DNA from: Chitinispirillia bacterium
GTDB lineage: Bacteria; Fibrobacterota; Chitinivibrionia; Chitinivibrionales; Chitinispirillaceae
DNA: 50,885 nucleotides
Direction: 5' to 3'
NCBI GenBank assembly: GCA_009784115.1
Contig: WRCH01000008.1
Coordinates: 1 to 50,885, forward strand
Part shown: in pieces, positions 1,191 through 12,877 of the stretch
Numbering within the stretch: position 1 is the first letter of the stretch
How the letters are laid out: each line of letters opens with the position of its first letter
Notes under the pieces: generated by a model
The model's database searches: none
Seen by the model: the letters and a program-made list of their open reading frames with translations, nothing else
What the model was told of the DNA's origin: nothing
Made by a program: the position numbers and the translations under genes

Positions 1191-2261
1191 ATGAGTAAAC
1201 TACGCTTATTGAGCGTGCTGTTCGCGGCAATGTTTGCGGTGACGGCGTTTATTGGATGTGATGGCAGCAGCGGCGGCGGTACCGGCCCCGGAGTTCAGCG
1301 GGATTCTGATTTGATAGGCTATTGGGAGAATAATTCGGGCGGTGTTTTTGGAGGTGCGTGGGAGTTCAAAAGCGACGGCGCTTTGAATCAGTATCTTCCG
1401 AATATTGGAGATCCTATGGAATATACCTGGTATACTAAAGACGGCAGTATACACCTTACGCTTAAAGGTTTGCAGCAGGAAAGTCCGTCTATGCCCTATG
1501 GGTTCAACAGCGACAAGACTGAGTTGACACTGAATATACTTGGGGCGCCTCTCATTTATACCAAGAAGAGCGGCGGCGGCGATAACGGCAGAAGTTTTGA
1601 TTTAGGATTAGTCGGTACATGGGAGCTGTTAGCAGATGGTGTTCCTGATCCGGATCATGCTTACGTATTTTACAGCGATGAAACGTTCTCCTTTAACGGT
1701 GATAATAAGGGTAAAGCGCAGACAGAGGATGGTAATTTTTACTCTGTACAATTCCCGAACGACCCGTTGTTCTCTTATGTAATCAGTTCGGATGGAAATA
1801 CGCTTACTGTTACATCTGCCGGTATAAGCAGTGTTTATGCAAAGAAGGGCAGCATCGGCGGCGGCGATACTGTTATTGATTCACGGTTAGTTGGTACCTG
1901 GGAGTCGGCGGCGGCCGGTACGGTAATCATGTCCTACACGTTTACTAACGATGGATCACATTTTTTAAACGGTGAGACTATCGGTTATAAGGTAGTAACA
2001 AAAAACAATATTATCTATTCGGTAATAGACGGTGATGAAGCGGAGCTGTACGGTTATACAATCAGCTCAGACGGCAATACGCTTACTCTTTCAGTTGACG
2101 GGATAGAGATTGGGAGTTACACTAGGAAGGTAAATACCGGCGGCGGTGAAGATGGCGGCGGCAGCGGTGGTGACAATGGCGGCAATAACAGTACCCACCA
2201 TCTTGTTTTAACTGATAATGAGGCGTTGTTAGACGCTGAATATGGTATACGGTATGAGTAA
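1191..2261 (+). CDS. Lipoprotein with three repeated lipocalin-like domains
   Basis: Unrecognised surface or periplasmic lipoprotein, 356 aa. A signal peptide ends in a lipobox-like sequence with the acylated cysteine at about residue 23 (AFIGC). Three repeats of about 95 aa follow, each opening with a (D/R)LVGTWE-type strand, then a YTF-SDG-type hairpin and a SDGNTLTL-type strand. This pattern recalls lipocalin-like beta-barrel repeats. GGG-rich linkers join them. After repeat 3 a long G/D/N-rich linker ends in about 20 non-repeat residues rather than another domain, as if a fourth domain had been lost. The start is supported by AGGAGA upstream. The stop overlaps the start of the next, paralogous gene. 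Function unknown. Confidence 0.75.
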   Translation: MSKLRLLSVLFAAMFAVTAFIGCDGSSGGGTGPGVQRDSDLIGYWENNSGGVFGGAWEFKSDGALNQYLPNIGDPMEYTWYTKDGSIHLTLKGLQQESPSMPYGFNSDKTELTLNILGAPLIYTKKSGGGDNGRSFDLGLVGTWELLADGVPDPDHAYVFYSDETFSFNGDNKGKAQTEDGNFYSVQFPNDPLFSYVISSDGNTLTVTSAGISSVYAKKGSIGGGDTVIDSRLVGTWESAAAGTVIMSYTFTNDGSHFLNGETIGYKVVTKNNIIYSVIDGDEAELYGYTISSDGNTLTLSVDGIEIGSYTRKVNTGGGEDGGGSGGDNGGNNSTHHLVLTDNEALLDAEYGIRYE

Positions 2262-3189
2262 AATACGTTTATTTGTTTTACTGTTCGCGGCAGTATTCGC
2301 GATGACGGCGGTGTTCGTTGGATGTGATGGCAGCGGCGCCGGTAACGATAATGACGGTGACACCCCGCCATCCTACAGCATTGATCCTGAATTAGCAGGC
2401 GCATGGGAGTATATAGCGGCAGGCAGGGTGCTTTTGGCGTACACGTTTAACAGTGATGGAACATATTTCATAGACGGTGAAAAACAGCCTTTTAAGGTGA
2501 TGACAAAAAATGATACGATCTATACAGCAGAGAGTGATAAAGAGGTTAAAAAGTACAGTTATAAAATCAGCGGCGGCACGCTTACTCTTACAAATCTCAG
2601 CACCGGGAACAAAGTTGCGGATTTTACTAAGGAGGGCAGCGGCGGCAGTAATAATGGCAGCGGCAACAACGTAACTTTTGATTTGGAATTAGTAGGTATA
2701 TGGGTATCGCCCAGCGGAACCCACGAGTTTAGAAGTGACAGAACATATCTGAGGCATGGCGTTATTCAGCCTGATAAATTGGTAACAAGAGGCGGTGTAA
2801 TCTATTCTGTGGCTGTTGATAATGTAGAGACAGAGATATTCCGATACGCAATCCTCTCTAACGGCACTGAACTTATTCTTACATACGATGGCGGCGGGTT
2901 TATTGAGCTTACCAAGCAGCAGGGCAGCGGCCGCGATCTTGATCCAAGGTTAGTGGGTACATGGGAGCTTTTAGTGGATGGTGCAGCTGATCCCAATGAG
3001 GCGTATACATTTAACAGCGACGGGATGTCCTCTTATAACGGTATTCCATTAGGTAAATTAGAGACAGAAAATGGTAAGCTGTACCCTGCAGGAAGTAATT
3101 CGGAACTGTTTACTTACGTAATCAGTCCGGATGGTCAAACGCTTTCTGCAACAACTGCCGGTATAACTTTACATTGGGCTAAAAAATAA
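2254..3189 (+). CDS. Paralogous lipoprotein with three repeated domains
   Basis: Tandem paralogue of the preceding lipoprotein, 311 aa from the chosen start. I chose the ATG at 2254 (MSKIRLF) over the in-frame ATG at 2242, because the first 25 codons then align with the start of the upstream gene at both protein and DNA level, including the shared GGTATGAGTAAA context. A signal peptide and lipobox (FVGC, about residue 24) precede three repeats, each beginning ELAGAWE, ELVGIWV or RLVGTWE. The last repeat resembles repeat 2 of the upstream gene most closely (DPNEAYTFNSDG versus DPDHAYVFYSDE), which suggests duplication with domain shuffling. The start overlaps the upstream stop by eight bases, implying coupled translation. 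Function unknown. Confidence 0.75.
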   Translation: MSKIRLFVLLFAAVFAMTAVFVGCDGSGAGNDNDGDTPPSYSIDPELAGAWEYIAAGRVLLAYTFNSDGTYFIDGEKQPFKVMTKNDTIYTAESDKEVKKYSYKISGGTLTLTNLSTGNKVADFTKEGSGGSNNGSGNNVTFDLELVGIWVSPSGTHEFRSDRTYLRHGVIQPDKLVTRGGVIYSVAVDNVETEIFRYAILSNGTELILTYDGGGFIELTKQQGSGRDLDPRLVGTWELLVDGAADPNEAYTFNSDGMSSYNGIPLGKLETENGKLYPAGSNSELFTYVISPDGQTLSATTAGITLHWAKK

Positions 3190-4789: not shown

Positions 4790-5617
4790 ATGGAACAACT
4801 CTTCGAAAAAATTCAGGAAGCAAAATCATTTATTCAAAGTAAAGTCGGACAGGATACAAAACCTGCCTTTGGGATTATCCTTGGCACAGGACTTGGCGGA
4901 TTGGCAAAAAGTATCCAGGCAAAACACGTAATCCCTTATGAAGAGATCCCTCACTTTCCTCTTTCTACAGTTGAAGAACATGCCGGTAAACTTATCTTTG
5001 GAACTCTGGCAGGTAAAGAGGTTATGGCCATGCAGGGGCGTTTTCATTTTTATGAGGGCTACTCCATGCAGCAGATTGTTTTTCCTGTACGGGTGATGAA
5101 GTTTTTGGACGTCAAGACACTCATTATATCAAACGCCTGCGGCGGGATAAATCCGCTTTTCCCTCCGGGGACGATTATGAATATTACAGATCATATTAAT
5201 TTACTGCCGGGAAACCCGCTCATCGGCCCTAATGATCCGCGCGTTGGTCTTCGTTTCCCTGACATGTCTGAGCCTTATTCAAATGAGCTGATTGAATTAG
5301 CCGCCAAAGTGGCTCTTGACAACAAAATAAAACTTGAAAGAGGCGTCTACGCCGCAATGACCGGCCCGTCGCTTGAAACAAAAGCTGAATACCGGATGTT
5401 GAAAATTTTGGGGGCTGACGTAATAGGCATGAGTACAGTTCCCGAAGTGATCGCGGCAGTACATGCGGGGATTAAGGTTCTTGGGTTTTCGGTGATTACA
5501 GATTCCTGTCTGCCCGACGCGCTTGAACCGGCTGACATTAAAAAAATTATTGCTGTTGCCGATAAGGCGGAGCCAGTGCTTGTAAAGCTAATCGAGAAAG
5601 TTTTGACGGCGTTATAA
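4790..5617 (+). CDS. punA: Purine nucleoside phosphorylase, class I trimeric type
   Basis: Cytosolic enzyme of 275 aa that converts inosine or guanosine plus phosphate to free base plus ribose-1-phosphate in purine salvage. Family features are [12 protein letters not shown] near residue 27 (phosphate loop), the GRFHFYEGY phosphate/ribose segment near residue 84, NACGGIN near 118, [15 protein letters not shown] near 190 and [11 protein letters not shown] near 214. Asn in the VITDSC segment near residue 240 is replaced by Asp, so base specificity should not be assumed. The ATG at 4790 is preceded by AAGGA. It stands between divIVA and the restriction-modification cassette and is probably a resident gene. 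Confidence 0.93.
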
Positions 5618-5727
5618 AAGGGTAGTATTGTTGGTATGTACATTATACAGAGAACGTGAAATTGTTTTTTATTTTTATGAGTTGATACTGGCGGTAAAAC
5701 AGTAATGTATCGTAATAGTAACATTTT

Positions 5728-8292
5728 ATGAAAAAAACAAAATCATATAAATACGAGCAGCCGGCGGTTGAATTGCTGAAAGTGGCGGAACGTTGTGTGC
5801 CATATAATCCGCGTACGTATGTCAGCCTGTTCAGTAGTGCCGGTGTAGGTTGTTATGGCTTCAAAGAGAGCTTATTTCACTGTGTAGCTACAGTGGAATT
5901 ATTGGAAAGACGACTTAAAATTCAAGCGCATAATCAAAAATGTACCCATGAAGATGGCTATATTAGTGGAGATTTAACTACAAAAGAGGTAAAAGATAAA
6001 GTCTTTGCCGAACTGAATCGGTGGAAGAGGCTGTATAACGTAGGTGATTTGGATGTCTTAATCGCCACCCCGCCATGTCAGGGAATGTCAGTTGCCAATC
6101 ATAAGAAAAAAGATGAATTGAAACGTAATTCTTTAGTAATCGAGTCAATTAAACTTACCAAAGAGATAAAGCCTAAATTTTTCATTTTTGAAAACGTTAG
6201 AGCGTTTCTTACGTCAATTTGTACGGATATTGATAATGAAGATAAGCCTATTGGACAAGCTATAGACTATAATTTATCCGGTTATTATAATATCCATACA
6301 CAAATACTTAATTTTAAAAATTACGGTAGTCCATCAAGCCGTACACGAACACTCGTGATTGGGGTTCGTAAAGACCTGAAAGAAATTACACCGATAGATG
6401 TTTTTCCCGATCAACATCCCGAACGAACTTTACGTGATATTATAGGTCATCTGCCATCTCTAAAAAAAATGGGCGAACTAAGCAGGAACGATATCTATCA
6501 TAATTTTCGTCAATATTCGCCACATATGGAAAATTGGATTGCAAATATTAAAGAGGGGCAATCTGCATTTGAAAATACAGATCAAACAAAAATACCACAT
6601 CGTATTAAAGATGGTGTTATTGTTTACAACACACACAAAAATGGTGATAAATATACTCGTCAATACTGGGATAAAGTAGCCCCGTGTATTCATACTCGTA
6701 ATGATATTTTAGCAAGCCAAAACACCATTCATCCAACGGATAATAGGGTTTTTAGTGTTAGAGAAGTTATGCTGATGATGTCTGTCCCCAATTCGTTTAA
6801 ATGGTCTGAAATATCTTTAGATAAACTTAATGCTATGTCACTCAAAGAGAAGTCTGAGTTTCTAAAAAAAGAAGAAATGAACATCCGCCAGTGTTTGGGA
6901 GAGGCAGTGCCAACGGCCATTTTACGGCAGATTGCAAATAAAATCGGTAAATTTTTATCGCAAAATGAATATACTGAACATGAATTTGTTGATATTATCC
7001 AGGAAAAAAAATTAGTAGAACACAAACGTCTGCTGAAATATATTAGTGAAGACACTTCGATGAGTTTTGCGCAATTGTCTAAGATTGCCGAACTGGCTAA
7101 TGCGCAGAGAGAAAATAATGCCGCTTTCTATACGCGTCAGGATATATGCTACTCAATAATCAAAAATCTGCCCGAAGCAAAAACGTATACGACGCTTAAT
7201 ATATTGGAGCCGTCTATCGGGGTTGGTAATTTTTTGCCGATATTGATTAAAAAATACAAAAGTGTTCCTGTTGTCAATATTGATGTGGTGGATGTTGACA
7301 AAAATAACATTGAATTGCTGAGAGAGTTGGTCAAAAAAATAGACATTCCGTCAAATATTTCAATTAACTACATTAATGATGATTTTTTATTGCACCCATT
7401 TGAAAAACGTTATGATATTATTGTTGGAAATCCGCCATATAAGAAAATCATAAAAGAGAAAACGAAATTGTCACATTATAAAGCAAATGCATATAACGAT
7501 GATACAAATAATGTATTTGCTTTTTTTATCGAAAAAGCGATGTGGCTAGGTGATACAGTTTCGTTAATTGTACCCAAAAGTGTAATTAATGCGCCTGAGT
7601 TTAATAAAACTCGCAAGTTGATGAATAAACACCGTATTTCACGAATAATTGACTTCGGTGAAAAAGGTTTTAAAGGAGTAAAAATTGAAACAATTAGTTT
7701 CATTTTAAATACAAAAGAGAAATCGGATATTACGGTTGTTGAATCATATATTACGAATGGCGTGTTTGCGCACAAGCAATCCTACATTGCAGACAGCTTT
7801 TTTCCGTATTGGTTGATATATCGTAATGAGTACTTTGATACAGTTGCCGCTAAACTAAAATTTAATATTTTTAAAGCGTACAGAGATAGATGTATCACAA
7901 AAGCTATAACCAAAAATATTGGTAAGATCAGAGTGCTAAAGTCTCGCAATATAGGAAATAATGAGATAATTGATATTCCCGACTATGATTGCTACATGGA
8001 TGATATAAGTTATTTGGATGTTACCAAATTTTTAAATCAAAAAAACTGTATTTTATTGCCAAATCTTACGTACAGTCCTCGTGCCTGTATTTTACCGCCA
8101 AATAGCATTGCCGATGGTTCAGTTGCAATCCTTACGCCGATAGACAAAAATACAAAAATGACGGAGCGCGATTTGGCGTTTTACGCGACAGATGAGTTTA
8201 CAAAATTTTATGCAGTAGCTAGAAATATGGGAAGCAGATCATTAAACATTGATAATAACTCCGTTTTCTTTTTTGGAAAGTTAAAGCAATAA
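5728..8292 (+). CDS. Fused m5C-m6A DNA methyltransferase of a type II R-M system
   Basis: Single 854-aa polypeptide carrying two complete methyltransferase domains. Residues about 30-415 form a C5-cytosine methyltransferase: motif I FSSAGVGCYGF (35-45), motif IV TPPCQGMS with catalytic C117, motif VI ENV (155-157), motif VIII SRTRT (about 204-208) and C-terminal motifs IX-X ending in GEAVPTAILRQIANKI. Residues about 450-854 form an N6-adenine methyltransferase with SAM motif EPSIGVGNF (494-502), catalytic NPPY (568-571) and a C-terminal region likely to be the target-recognition domain. Fused m5C/m6A enzymes are known for type IIS systems with asymmetric sites, for example M.Esp3I, where each strand needs a different methylation. 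The gene is AT-richer than its neighbours and lies four bases before an HNH nuclease gene. Recognition sequence unknown. Confidence 0.92.
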   Translation: MKKTKSYKYEQPAVELLKVAERCVPYNPRTYVSLFSSAGVGCYGFKESLFHCVATVELLERRLKIQAHNQKCTHEDGYISGDLTTKEVKDKVFAELNRWKRLYNVGDLDVLIATPPCQGMSVANHKKKDELKRNSLVIESIKLTKEIKPKFFIFENVRAFLTSICTDIDNEDKPIGQAIDYNLSGYYNIHTQILNFKNYGSPSSRTRTLVIGVRKDLKEITPIDVFPDQHPERTLRDIIGHLPSLKKMGELSRNDIYHNFRQYSPHMENWIANIKEGQSAFENTDQTKIPHRIKDGVIVYNTHKNGDKYTRQYWDKVAPCIHTRNDILASQNTIHPTDNRVFSVREVMLMMSVPNSFKWSEISLDKLNAMSLKEKSEFLKKEEMNIRQCLGEAVPTAILRQIANKIGKFLSQNEYTEHEFVDIIQEKKLVEHKRLLKYISEDTSMSFAQLSKIAELANAQRENNAAFYTRQDICYSIIKNLPEAKTYTTLNILEPSIGVGNFLPILIKKYKSVPVVNIDVVDVDKNNIELLRELVKKIDIPSNISINYINDDFLLHPFEKRYDIIVGNPPYKKIIKEKTKLSHYKANAYNDDTNNVFAFFIEKAMWLGDTVSLIVPKSVINAPEFNKTRKLMNKHRISRIIDFGEKGFKGVKIETISFILNTKEKSDITVVESYITNGVFAHKQSYIADSFFPYWLIYRNEYFDTVAAKLKFNIFKAYRDRCITKAITKNIGKIRVLKSRNIGNNEIIDIPDYDCYMDDISYLDVTKFLNQKNCILLPNLTYSPRACILPPNSIADGSVAILTPIDKNTKMTERDLAFYATDEFTKFYAVARNMGSRSLNIDNNSVFFFGKLKQ

Positions 8293-8296
8293 ATAT

Positions 8297-9484
8297 ATGG
8301 AACGACAGATTGCAGAATATCTTGATCAATATAATTTTGATGTTAGAAAGACAAAAAACAGCCGTTTTATGGATCAGAAATGCACGCCTGATGTAATTTG
8401 CGCTGTTTGTGAATGTGTCGTAGAATATGTAAAAGATAACGTAAGTATTCAATTTACAAAAAATGACATTTGGAAATCTGAATATGCTAATAATTTGATT
8501 ACAGAATCATTTTCCAAGCCAAATTTATCGAAAGAAGATGCAAAAAGTGAGTACGATAAATTTTTCTCACAGCCGCTTAAAGCTCTGTCATACGCCAAAA
8601 TATTGAATGAAGAAAAGATCGGAACAACAAATTATTATAATGTAAGAAACGCTGAAATACTGCAATATATCTCGTTACGTGAAAAGAGCGCATTGTTTTT
8701 TCTTGATTGTTTTTTAACAAAAACAATGGAAGAAAGCGGTATGATACAATCGTTCAATACTTTTTTTCAGCGACAAAATAGTGCTTCATTGAAAGACCTG
8801 TGCGATGGATTGCTGCAGTTGTACCGTACCAATACTGCAATTAAAGGTGATTACGAACCGCCGCGTATTTACAACAAAATTATTAATATTCTCGCTTTTA
8901 AGCGCAAAGCAAAAGGAATTGTGAAAGGCAAAGTTTCTAAAAATACGCTTACAATTGATGAAATAAGATATAATCGTATAAATTGGCGTGATTTAAATAA
9001 AGATAAAACAATATCACGCCAAGCATACAACGAATTATTTCAACAAAACATTGGCGATAGCAAAGGTTATTATAAATATTATGTTCAAAAAGCGAAAAAA
9101 CTTGTTAGACAGTTACACCCATACAGTGAAATCCACAGGTTTCCTGAATACCCCGGATTGCAGGCGCACCATATTTTTATGGAAAGTGAATTCCCTGAAA
9201 TAGCAGATTATCCCGAAAATATTATCTGTACAACACCTAATCAGCATTTCTATAGGGCGCACCCAAATAATCGAACTTCTGTCGTTGACTCAGGTTATCA
9301 GTTAATTTGTTTACTCTGCAAGCTGGATACCATAGAAATGGATATCCGTTCAGGTAGCAATAATTATTCATTGTCAGATTTTGTAAATGTCTTAAATATC
9401 GGATTCGATACAAGTACATTTACTATGCAAATGGATTATGAAGAAATTAAACATCGAATCGTTAAGAATGCTATCCATCTGTGA
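8297..9484 (+). CDS. HNH-motif restriction endonuclease, partner of the fused methyltransferase
   Basis: Predicted nuclease of 395 aa. The only recognisable motif is in the C-terminal third: AHHIFMESEFPE with H291-H292, N308 in ENIICTTP and H317 in NQHFYRAHP, a beta-beta-alpha-metal (HNH) active site. The N-terminal 280 residues have no motif I recognise; they probably hold DNA-recognition and dimerisation parts, including a lysine-rich segment at about 195-225. The start lies four bases after the methyltransferase stop, so the pair is one operon and the identification as the cognate restriction enzyme is contextual. HNH catalytic sites are known in type IIS enzymes such as Eco31I. Base composition is AT-rich like the methyltransferase and unlike ileS. 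Confidence 0.82.
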   Translation: MERQIAEYLDQYNFDVRKTKNSRFMDQKCTPDVICAVCECVVEYVKDNVSIQFTKNDIWKSEYANNLITESFSKPNLSKEDAKSEYDKFFSQPLKALSYAKILNEEKIGTTNYYNVRNAEILQYISLREKSALFFLDCFLTKTMEESGMIQSFNTFFQRQNSASLKDLCDGLLQLYRTNTAIKGDYEPPRIYNKIINILAFKRKAKGIVKGKVSKNTLTIDEIRYNRINWRDLNKDKTISRQAYNELFQQNIGDSKGYYKYYVQKAKKLVRQLHPYSEIHRFPEYPGLQAHHIFMESEFPEIADYPENIICTTPNQHFYRAHPNNRTSVVDSGYQLICLLCKLDTIEMDIRSGSNNYSLSDFVNVLNIGFDTSTFTMQMDYEEIKHRIVKNAIHL

Positions 9485-9595
9485 AAGTTTAAAAAAAATG
9501 TAATATGGTTTTATTCAAAACAACTAAACAGATAAACTATTTTATGTTTCAAAGTATAGTGATTCGCAAAAGGATGGAGATTAATTAAGGACAAT

Positions 9596-12500
9596 ATGAA
9601 ACAGGAACATTTTCAAAACGTAAATACCCAAATAAGATTTCCTCAAATAGAATCAGAGATTCTTGACTTATGGAACAAAGAGGAAACTTTTAAGAAGTCG
9701 CTTGAAGCTACAGCTAAAGAGCAGGCGTTCGTATTTTATGACGGCCCCCCTTTCGCTACGGGACTGCCTCACTACGGCCATTTATTGGCGGGGACGCTAA
9801 AAGATATAATTCCGCGCTACTGGACTATGCGCGGGTATAATGTTGAACGCCGCTTTGGCTGGGACTGTCACGGACTGCCGGTTGAAAATGAGATGGAAAA
9901 AGAGTTCAAGGTATCGGGTAAGCGTGATATTGAAAAACTTGGCATCCACGTATTTAACGAAGCGTGTCGCTCTATTGTTCTGCGCTATACGGGTCAGTGG
10001 GAAAAAGTTGTTAACAGGATGGGGCGATGGGTTGATTTTGTAAATCAATACCGCACTATGGATCCGCCGTATATGGAAAGTATTTGGTGGGTGTTTAAGC
10101 AGGTGTGGGAGAAGGAACTTATTTACAGAGGGTTTCGGGTGCAGCCATATTGTCCAAGATGCGCTACTCCGCTCTCAAATTTTGAGGTTAACGAAGGGTA
10201 TAAGGAGATCAGCGGTCCGTCTATTACGGTGATGTTTCCTCTTGTTGATGATCCGTCCACAAAAATATTAGTGTGGACTACAACGCCGTGGACACTGCCG
10301 TCTAATGTTGCGCTTGCAGTTGGGGCTGATATCACATATCTCAAAATTAAGGATGGTGATAATACTTACATCATCGCAAAAGACCGGCTTGGCGCTTATT
10401 ACAAAGATGTGTCGACCGTTGAGATCATCAGCGAAATAAAAGGCAGTGATCTTGTCGGATTACGTTATGTTCCAATGTTTGATTACTTCAAGGACAAAGA
10501 CCCGCGTTTCTTCACTGTCACCGCGGCTGATTTTGTATCAACGGAAGACGGAGCAGGTATCGTACACATCGCGCCTGCGTTTGGTGAGGATGACTTTGCG
10601 GTCGGTCAAAAATTGGGATTGCCTATTGTTTGTCCGGTAGATGACGAAGGAAAATTTACAGAAGAAGTTCCGCAGTGGAAAGGCAAACTCGTTTATACTG
10701 CCGATGATGAAATCATCCGCCATATAAAATCAATAGAAAGAATGTTTCATAAAACAGCAACTGTCCACAGATACCCTCATTGTTACCGTTGTGATACTGC
10801 TCTCATCTATAAGGCGATCACAACATGGTTTATGAAAATTGATCCGCTAAAACCCAATATGCTTCACAACAACGAGCAGATTCATTGGGTGCCGTCTCAT
10901 CTCCAAACAGGCCGCTTCGGTAAAGGGATAGCAAGTGCGCCCGATTGGAACATATCAAGGAATCGCTATTGGGGAACTCCTCTTCCAGTGTGGCTGTGCG
11001 AATGCGGTCATACGGAGTGCGTTGGCGGACTTGACGAACTGCATAAGCTTGTTGGTAATGGTAATAAATCAGCCGGTGAAAATATCCACGCCCAAACAGC
11101 ACGCAAAGTACAGGAAAGCTTGAAGACGGATGACGTGGCGAAACGGATGTCTGACGCCGGTATTGATCAATCATGGACGCAGATGCTGAAAGATGTTGAG
11201 ATCAGCAGTGTTGATATCCATCGCCATATAGTTGACGAGCTTGAAGCAAAATGTCCTAAATGCAAAGCATTAATGCACCGTACAACAGAGGTGCTTGACT
11301 GCTGGTTTGAATCGGGTTCGATGCCTTACGCGCAGCAGCATTATCCATTTGAAAACAAAGAGGTCTTCGAGAAAAATTTCCCGGCAGATTTTATCGCCGA
11401 GGGACTCGATCAAACACGCGGATGGTTTTATACGCTGACTGTTTTGGCTGGCGCGCTCTTTTCAAAACCTGCTTTTAAAAATGTAATTGTCAACGGAATT
11501 ATTCTCGCTGAGGACGGAAAAAAGTTATCAAAACGTTTGCGAAACTATGCTCCGCCGGAAGAAGTCCTTAATGATTTAGGCGCCGACAGTCTTCGACTGT
11601 TTTTGATAAATTCTCCGGCAGTAAAGGCCGAAGACTTACGCTTTTCAGAAAAAGGCGTTATGGAAATGTCGCGTGCGGTGCTTCTGCCTTTCTGGAACGC
11701 GTATTCATTTTTTGTGACTTATGCTAATGTTGACGGATGGAAACCAGCGAGTGAAGAGCTGCCTCAAAGTCAGGCGGAACTTGACAGGTGGATAATATCA
11801 CTGTTGAATGACGTCATTGCATCAGTCAACAAAGAGATGGAGCGCTACAATCTATACAAAGTAGTTCCGCTTCTCGTTGACTTTATCGACAATCTCACAA
11901 ACTGGTATATCCGCAGAAGCCGCCGCAGGTTTTGGAAGAGTGAGAACGACGGCGATAAGATGGCGGCTTACGGAACGCTCTACTATGTATTGGTTCAGTT
12001 CTCAAAAGTCATGGCACCGTTTTTGCCTTTTTTAACCGAGGCAATCTATAGAAATCTTGTCGTTGGAAAAATTGAAGGCGCGCCGTCAAGCGTGCATTTG
12101 ACAAAATATCCTTGTGCTGTAGAGACAACGATTGACGAAGATCTTGGTTTAAAGATGCAGCTTGTGCGTCAGGCGGTGACTATGGGACGCAGCATGCGCA
12201 GTCGTTTTACTATAAAGACCCGTCAGCCACTCAGTGAGTTTACAATTGTTCTCGCGGATAAGCGCAAAATCGATCTCATTAAAGATATGGAAGCGCTCAT
12301 AAAAGATGAACTCAATGTGAAAAAAGTAACATTCGATTCTCAGGAAGAGCGCGTAGTAAGCGTGAGCGCTAAACCAAATTTCAAAAAACTTGGGAAATTG
12401 TTTGGTCCCTCTATGAAAGAGGCTTCCGCAATAATCGAAAAATTCAGTAACGCCGATATAAAAACGCTTGAATCCGGCTCAACAATAGAGGTTCTTGGAA

Positions 12501-12877
12501 AAACGCTTACGTATGAAGATATAGAGATCCGCCGTACAAAGCATGAGGGCGTAGAGGTTCAGACAGAGGGCGAGCTTACTATTGGGCTTGAAACCACTAT
12601 CACTCCTGATCTTAAAAACGAGTGTATGGCAAGGGAGTTTGTAAACCGTGTTCAGAATCTTCGCAAAAGCAGTGGATTTAATGTCAGTGATCGGATTATC
12701 ATCCACACTGCTTGTCCTGCGGAGATTGAAAGCGCATTGAAACAGTTTAATGAGTACGTTTGCGCGGAGACTCTCGCTGTTGACATACAATTCAATAGTG
12801 AGATGTCTCAAAACGGTGAAGTGGCAGATGTGGAAGATCTCGCGTTAAAGATAAAAGTAGAAAAAACGGAGGCGTAA
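9596..12877 (+). CDS. ileS: Isoleucyl-tRNA synthetase
   Basis: Class I aminoacyl-tRNA synthetase of 1093 aa that charges tRNA-Ile in the cytoplasm. The HIGH signature reads GLPHYGHLLAG near residue 58 and the KMSKS loop reads KKLSKRL near residue 640. Between them lies the CP1 editing domain (TTTPWTLPSN, GAGIVHIAPAFGEDDF). Cysteine pairs (YCPRC, CYRC, CECG, CPKC) look like zinc knuckles. The length and long C-terminal extension match the eukaryote-like IleS2 group, which in other organisms is often less mupirocin-sensitive; that property is not shown here. The AAGGA before the ATG fits. No T-box leader was found in the 110-base gap after the nuclease gene. The stop is one base from the next gene. 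Confidence 0.97.
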   Translation: MKQEHFQNVNTQIRFPQIESEILDLWNKEETFKKSLEATAKEQAFVFYDGPPFATGLPHYGHLLAGTLKDIIPRYWTMRGYNVERRFGWDCHGLPVENEMEKEFKVSGKRDIEKLGIHVFNEACRSIVLRYTGQWEKVVNRMGRWVDFVNQYRTMDPPYMESIWWVFKQVWEKELIYRGFRVQPYCPRCATPLSNFEVNEGYKEISGPSITVMFPLVDDPSTKILVWTTTPWTLPSNVALAVGADITYLKIKDGDNTYIIAKDRLGAYYKDVSTVEIISEIKGSDLVGLRYVPMFDYFKDKDPRFFTVTAADFVSTEDGAGIVHIAPAFGEDDFAVGQKLGLPIVCPVDDEGKFTEEVPQWKGKLVYTADDEIIRHIKSIERMFHKTATVHRYPHCYRCDTALIYKAITTWFMKIDPLKPNMLHNNEQIHWVPSHLQTGRFGKGIASAPDWNISRNRYWGTPLPVWLCECGHTECVGGLDELHKLVGNGNKSAGENIHAQTARKVQESLKTDDVAKRMSDAGIDQSWTQMLKDVEISSVDIHRHIVDELEAKCPKCKALMHRTTEVLDCWFESGSMPYAQQHYPFENKEVFEKNFPADFIAEGLDQTRGWFYTLTVLAGALFSKPAFKNVIVNGIILAEDGKKLSKRLRNYAPPEEVLNDLGADSLRLFLINSPAVKAEDLRFSEKGVMEMSRAVLLPFWNAYSFFVTYANVDGWKPASEELPQSQAELDRWIISLLNDVIASVNKEMERYNLYKVVPLLVDFIDNLTNWYIRRSRRRFWKSENDGDKMAAYGTLYYVLVQFSKVMAPFLPFLTEAIYRNLVVGKIEGAPSSVHLTKYPCAVETTIDEDLGLKMQLVRQAVTMGRSMRSRFTIKTRQPLSEFTIVLADKRKIDLIKDMEALIKDELNVKKVTFDSQEERVVSVSAKPNFKKLGKLFGPSMKEASAIIEKFSNADIKTLESGSTIEVLGKTLTYEDIEIRRTKHEGVEVQTEGELTIGLETTITPDLKNECMAREFVNRVQNLRKSSGFNVSDRIIIHTACPAEIESALKQFNEYVCAETLAVDIQFNSEMSQNGEVADVEDLALKIKVEKTEA

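Follow-up and report, generated by a model that had tools for sequence, protein, structure and literature searches.

A predicted HpyAV-like type IIS restriction-modification system with a fused m5C-m6A methyltransferase in a Chitinispirillia bacterium

Results

A two-gene module between pnp and ileS

Within the window (the whole stretch of DNA that was analysed, 50,885 nucleotides of contig WRCH01000008.1), two open reading frames follow each other on the plus strand: 5728-8292 encodes a protein of 854 aa and 8297-9484 a protein of 395 aa, with a gap of 4 bp, exactly as the original prediction had described them. Together with their flanks, they form a module with the following features:

5618-9595 (no strand): inserted module, 3978 bp, between pnp (4790-5617) and ileS (9596-12877), recognized by its low GC content and by neighbours that touch elsewhere
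5728-8292 (+): fused m5C and gamma-class m6A DNA methyltransferase, M.HpyAV-like, 854 aa, assigned from Pfam, PADLOC, motifs and model
6367-6690 (+): presumed m5C target-recognition region, residues 214-321, between motifs VIII and IX; placed by motif order and conserved like the catalytic part
7828-8289 (+): presumed m6A target-recognition region, residues about 701-854; aligns with the C-terminal domain of M.TaqI and CamA in a model search, and is conserved
8297-9484 (+): putative HpyAV-like type IIS restriction endonuclease, 395 aa, with a C-terminal HNH site of the beta-beta-alpha-Me type, assigned from PDLC03488, invariant HNH residues and model
9167-9247 (+): HNH active site, H291, H292, N308 and H317, with the same spacing as H294, H295, N311 and H320 of HpyAV

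The GC content of the module is 23-36%, compared with 45% in its surroundings. In ten further genomes of the host family, the two genes that it separates overlap or are directly adjacent, and the splitting by AT-rich DNA of a junction that is contiguous in these ten relatives indicates that the module was acquired horizontally. The only other genome from this genus lacks the system at pnp-ileS and harbors a distinct HpyAV-like system at another locus (46% and 35% identical). The nearest methyltransferases are those of Bacteroidales (75-76% identity for Tannerella and 76% for genome G416), a similarity which suggests that the module was probably derived from this order.

In the nearest relative (G001), the module is absent from the pnp-ileS junction (L013:2316-2560), which instead contains approximately 236 bp of GC-rich repeats made up of palindrome-like units. 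Upstream in the window (1191-3189), two adjoining lipoprotein-like genes harbor repeated units of the 'LVGTWE...YTF..DG' type and are apparently tandem paralogues.

The fused methyltransferase

The 854-aa protein is composed of an m5C half (approximately residues 30-410), a linker (411-450) and an m6A half (451-854). All of the motifs on which its earlier description as a fused m5C-m6A methyltransferase was based could be located: PPC at 115-117 (including C117), ENV at 155 and SRTRT at 204 in the first half, and EPSIGVGNF at 494 and NPPY at 568 in the second. Pfam agrees, with a complete C5-cytosine methylase domain (residues 31-407, E 3e-39) and an Eco57I-type N6-adenine methylase domain (residues 527-646, E 2e-16). 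In the AlphaFold2 model of the protein (pLDDT 84), the m6A half covers almost all of M.TaqI (highest TM-score on the target, 0.75) and matches CamA and M.BseCI as well. On the basis of the match with M.TaqI and CamA, the modelled m6A half is of the gamma-class fold, and the alignment with almost all of M.TaqI implies that it carries a C-terminal recognition domain of its own. Moreover, the two methyltransferases are encoded by separate genes in Hin4II and on an Acinetobacter plasmid, which suggests that the halves are self-sufficient. The question raised at the outset for structure prediction, namely whether the protein has one or two recognition domains, is thus answered in favour of two separate ones.

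The nuclease

The HNH active site proposed for the 395-aa protein was confirmed, since the HH...N...H residues (HH-x15-N-x8-H) are invariant in 23 homologues. The protein belongs to no Pfam family and has no match to the Pfam HNH models. In its AlphaFold2 model (pLDDT 86), the HNH part is preceded by two helical domains, both of which have a beta-hairpin at their end. A sequence search of the PDB revealed no relative, and a fold search with the model gave nothing below E 0.1, the weak matches being to winged-helix and O-methyltransferase folds only. That the nuclease binds DNA through a winged helix is only a guess.

Assignment to the HpyAV/Hin4II family

Likeness to HpyAV and Hin4II was gauged by profile models, published protein lengths and catalytic residues. 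The large protein matches the PADLOC model PDLC03277 (823 positions) over residues 30-853 of 854 (E 5e-231). Two shorter models, PDLC03370 (387 positions, 4e-148) and PDLC03382 (445 positions, 1e-92), cover its two halves. The sole PADLOC match of the nuclease is PDLC03488 (E 4e-107, residues 3-377). Published lengths are 823 aa for M.HpyAV, 387 aa for M1.Hin4II and 445 aa for M2.Hin4II (PMC2816704), and from these equal lengths we infer that the PADLOC models stand for the HpyAV/Hin4II methyltransferases. M.HpyAV combines m5C and m6A domains in one protein encoded upstream of the nuclease gene, HpyAV cuts CCTTC(6/5), as does Hin4II, and HpyAV mutants revealed that cleavage requires H294, H295, N311 and H320 (PMC2816704). 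In vivo, 92-96% of sites carry the marks of M.HpyAV, namely m5C in CCTTC and, on the opposite strand, m6A in GGAAG (3'-5') (PMC3936762).

These comparisons make it very probable that the system is a new member of the HpyAV/Hin4II type IIS restriction-modification family, and as such of a known kind. The nuclease, for which the original prediction could name no similarity beyond the HNH motif, acquires HpyAV as a named relative through PDLC03488 and the spacing of its residues. The type IIS-like reading of the original prediction, with a different methylation on each strand of an asymmetric site, is supported.

The probable target site

The presumed recognition regions were compared among 20 methyltransferases, and both are conserved as much as the rest of the protein (42-81% to relatives); the m5C region is 78-81% identical to the nearest Bacteroidales proteins. 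Between L056 and L003, which are paired with different nuclease lineages, the recognition regions are 85% and 82% identical.

CCTTC was fixed as the candidate before counting. The window contains 33 CCTTC sites, compared with 82.5 +/- 9 expected from dinucleotide shuffles. In host genes (a sample of 255 genes, 400 kb plus the window minus the module), 248 sites were observed and 702 expected under synonymous codon shuffling (O/E 0.35, z -19). In the host genome (G000), CCTTC ranks sixth of 508 pentamers in depletion (O/E 0.36), and in G533, which encodes a fused single-chain enzyme, it is the most depleted of the 508 (O/E 0.13). Low values were also found in the carriers G066 (O/E 0.11, only 3 sites versus 31) and G064 (0.38). 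Of the 17 carriers in all, however, nine have an O/E of 0.8-1.0 and another four one of 0.59-0.68, and a non-carrier, G010, is at 0.59; carriers (without G000) and non-carriers showed no significant difference in CCTTC depletion (p 0.12). This unevenness among carriers makes the specificity probable rather than demonstrated, and the depletion could also stem from an earlier system of the lineage with CCTTC as its target. Taken as a prediction from sequence, CCTTC is the likely target.

It is unlikely that a system belonging to the HpyAV family by descent recognizes here another asymmetric site, for example one that is one base off CCTTC. Drift of specificity is possible in type IIS families, and the nuclease is only 35-50% identical to most of its relatives. 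Furthermore, several motifs are rarer than CCTTC in the host (G000, L078-L097), namely CCAGG/CCTGG (that is, CCWGG; O/E 0.14), CCAGA/TCTGG (0.17) and GGACC/GGTCC (GGWCC; 0.29), and this stronger depletion suggests that other restriction systems exist or once existed there. Nevertheless, both recognition regions are conserved like the catalytic parts even across nuclease lineages, and the pentamer with these high depletion ranks in the host and in the fused-enzyme relative had been named beforehand. The same evidence weighs against the earlier proposal of an unknown, possibly new specificity.

A decayed or inactive system, whether an orphan methyltransferase or a remnant, is still less probable. 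The genome is of MAG quality, some relatives (L002 and L007) have broken methyltransferase genes, and a simple scan for promoters and terminators, uninformative in itself, found none that was clear. However, both frames of the window are intact, their catalytic motifs are complete, and CCTTC is under-represented in the host genome.

Other family assignments and the relatives of the system

Enzymes of the Alw26I/Eco31I/Esp3I family, two of which (Esp3I and Eco31I) the original prediction had named as relatives, are type IIS systems with an HNH nuclease and m5C plus m6A protection, as the NCBIfam description also states. Their general plan is alike, and the m6A core of the window protein does match TIGR02987, the model for the m6A methyltransferases of these enzymes. 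However, it scores 59.8 bits, far under the cut-off of 353.5, and the NCBIfam nuclease models of this family gave no match up to E = 1, whereas HpyAV-type models fit end to end. Since the profiles of the Alw26I/Eco31I/Esp3I family accept neither protein, membership was rejected and is considered highly improbable.

Homologous M-R pairs occur in Bacteroidota, Bacillota, the phylum of the window itself, plasmids and viral contigs, and because they recur across these groups, the two-gene pairing is far beyond chance. In nearly all relatives, M precedes R and is co-directional with it. At each of the eight named genome loci that were found by the methyltransferase alone, the same nuclease family adjoins it, and likewise on the plasmids and viral contigs. 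The scenario of an unrelated homing-type HNH nuclease that lies beside the methyltransferase by chance, raised in the original prediction as a case against its own reading and compatible with the lack of a Pfam family, can be practically discarded, since the co-occurrence of the same two families across phyla refutes chance adjacency. The nuclease is carried by 5 of the 168 genomes of the phylum, and of 393 genomes sampled from the order to which a Tannerella genome belongs, 8 had a match, one of them weak. When viral contigs were scanned, the single nuclease sequence as query revealed nothing, while alignments revealed 10 and 6 loci.

Several relatives exhibit a different architecture. In L058:2336-6148 (G533), a single frame of 1270 aa combines the m5C and m6A methyltransferases with the HNH nuclease through a linker of about 27 aa, and the M-M-R junction has no sign of a frameshift in the assembled sequence (as distinct from raw reads). 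In L054:5155-7914 (G191), an HpyAV-like nuclease is extended by a C-terminal MACPF domain (Pfam E 4e-12) and TPR-like repeats to a total of 919 aa. At the viral contig locus L064:626-6260, a single fused methyltransferase precedes two distinct nucleases of this family, which are separated from each other by a small gene. In L059:639-4368 (G384), a fused methyltransferase that is 44% identical adjoins a different, classical HNH_2-type nuclease (Pfam E 1e-9), the middle part of which matches the HpyAV-type nuclease profile only weakly. In addition, an unnamed family of small proteins (WEHNEEQGAWGSEGRIHC) is encoded beside the system at numerous loci, in most cases immediately 3' of the nuclease (for example L062:9248-9628, L055:5575-5946, L003:9770-10138 and L064:4375-5001), and is absent from the window. 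Neither PADLOC nor PHROGs gave a match for this family, and its longest member alone has a weak Tudor-like tail in Pfam.

Exchange of nucleases beside similar methyltransferases

Comparison of the window with the Tannerella locus L003 showed that the methyltransferases are 75% identical and the nucleases 38%, and between G416 and L003 the corresponding values are 82-83% and 40%. The nucleases of the window and G416 are 75% identical. In the methyltransferase tree, the window, G416 and L003 are clustered together (98/97), while in the nuclease tree the window and G416 are positioned with Saprospiraceae L005 and G191 (99/99), apart from other Bacteroidales. Forcing the conflicting groups together was rejected for both the methyltransferase tree (p-AU 2e-6) and the nuclease tree (p-AU 4e-5 to 8e-5), for groups that were picked after the trees were seen.

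The coexistence of methyltransferases 75-83% alike with nucleases about 39% alike argues for the exchange of modules at a constant target. Moreover, a methyltransferase must protect against both nucleases, so that exchange in turn argues for a common target. It seems somewhat more probable than not that the nuclease gene acts as an exchangeable cassette, in which cutters that are approximately 40% identical have been swapped beside methyltransferases that are 75-83% identical, with the recognition regions kept and the target fixed; M-M-R fusion and one-methyltransferase, two-nuclease forms would also have been explored. The two nucleases of L064 are 39% alike, and their layout with one methyltransferase might resemble an intermediate of such an exchange.

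Discussion

For the HpyAV/Hin4II-type reading of the locus, the following mechanism is proposed. The N-terminal half of the methyltransferase would produce m5C in CCTTC, and the C-terminal half, using its own recognition domain, would produce m6A in the complementary GAAGG, so that the asymmetric site would carry a mark on each strand. The HNH nuclease (395 aa) would bind unmethylated CCTTC, probably via its helical N-terminal domains, and would cut at a short distance downstream (at 6/5 for HpyAV), and cutting at unmethylated CCTTC would lead to the destruction of unmethylated incoming DNA. What the sequence shows directly is the membership of the family, the conservation of the catalytic residues, the order of the genes and the insertion of the module between pnp and ileS. 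The target, the 6/5 position of the cut, the activity of the system and its role in defence are presumed.

The system itself is ordinary, and some interest lies in the exchange of nucleases and in the architectural variants of the family. For annotation, 'unknown specificity' is replaced by a concrete and cheap prediction, namely m5C/m6A at CCTTC/GAAGG and a 6/5 cut. Nearly the same methyltransferases paired with nucleases of different lineages offer a natural experiment on the co-evolution of recognition and cleavage genes under a fixed target, the single-chain M-M-R relative is a candidate for a compact type IIS enzyme, and the nuclease is one for which the PDB yielded no sequence-related solved structure.

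Among known systems, HpyAV of Helicobacter pylori 26695 (hp0053 nuclease and hp0054 fused methyltransferase, CCTTC 6/5) resembles the window system in its fused m5C-m6A methyltransferase, which is of comparable length and precedes a separate, co-directional HNH nuclease, and in the identical spacing of the four catalytic residues that are proven for HpyAV. However, the nuclease of the window has 395 aa and HpyAV 419 aa, and the sequences are divergent: the Bacteroides stercoris relative of the window subgroup is listed at 33% (nuclease) and 43% (methyltransferase) identity to HpyAV. Hin4II of Haemophilus influenzae, also CCTTC 6/5, has the same set of enzymes, and the 387- and 445-position models cover the halves of the window protein, but its two methyltransferases are separate genes, in contrast to the fusion in the window. 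A member of the family would be expected to cleave 6/5 downstream and to be more active with Mn, Ni and Co than with Mg. The putative system Bst43183ORF2897P of B. stercoris, a fused member in the published family table (856 + 390 aa; PMC2816704), is likened to the window by these listed lengths and belongs to the Bacteroidales subgroup that holds the window methyltransferase. The Bacteroidales nucleases of similar length to that of Bst43183ORF2897P (L055 and L057) are 36-38% identical to the window nuclease, which represents another lineage.
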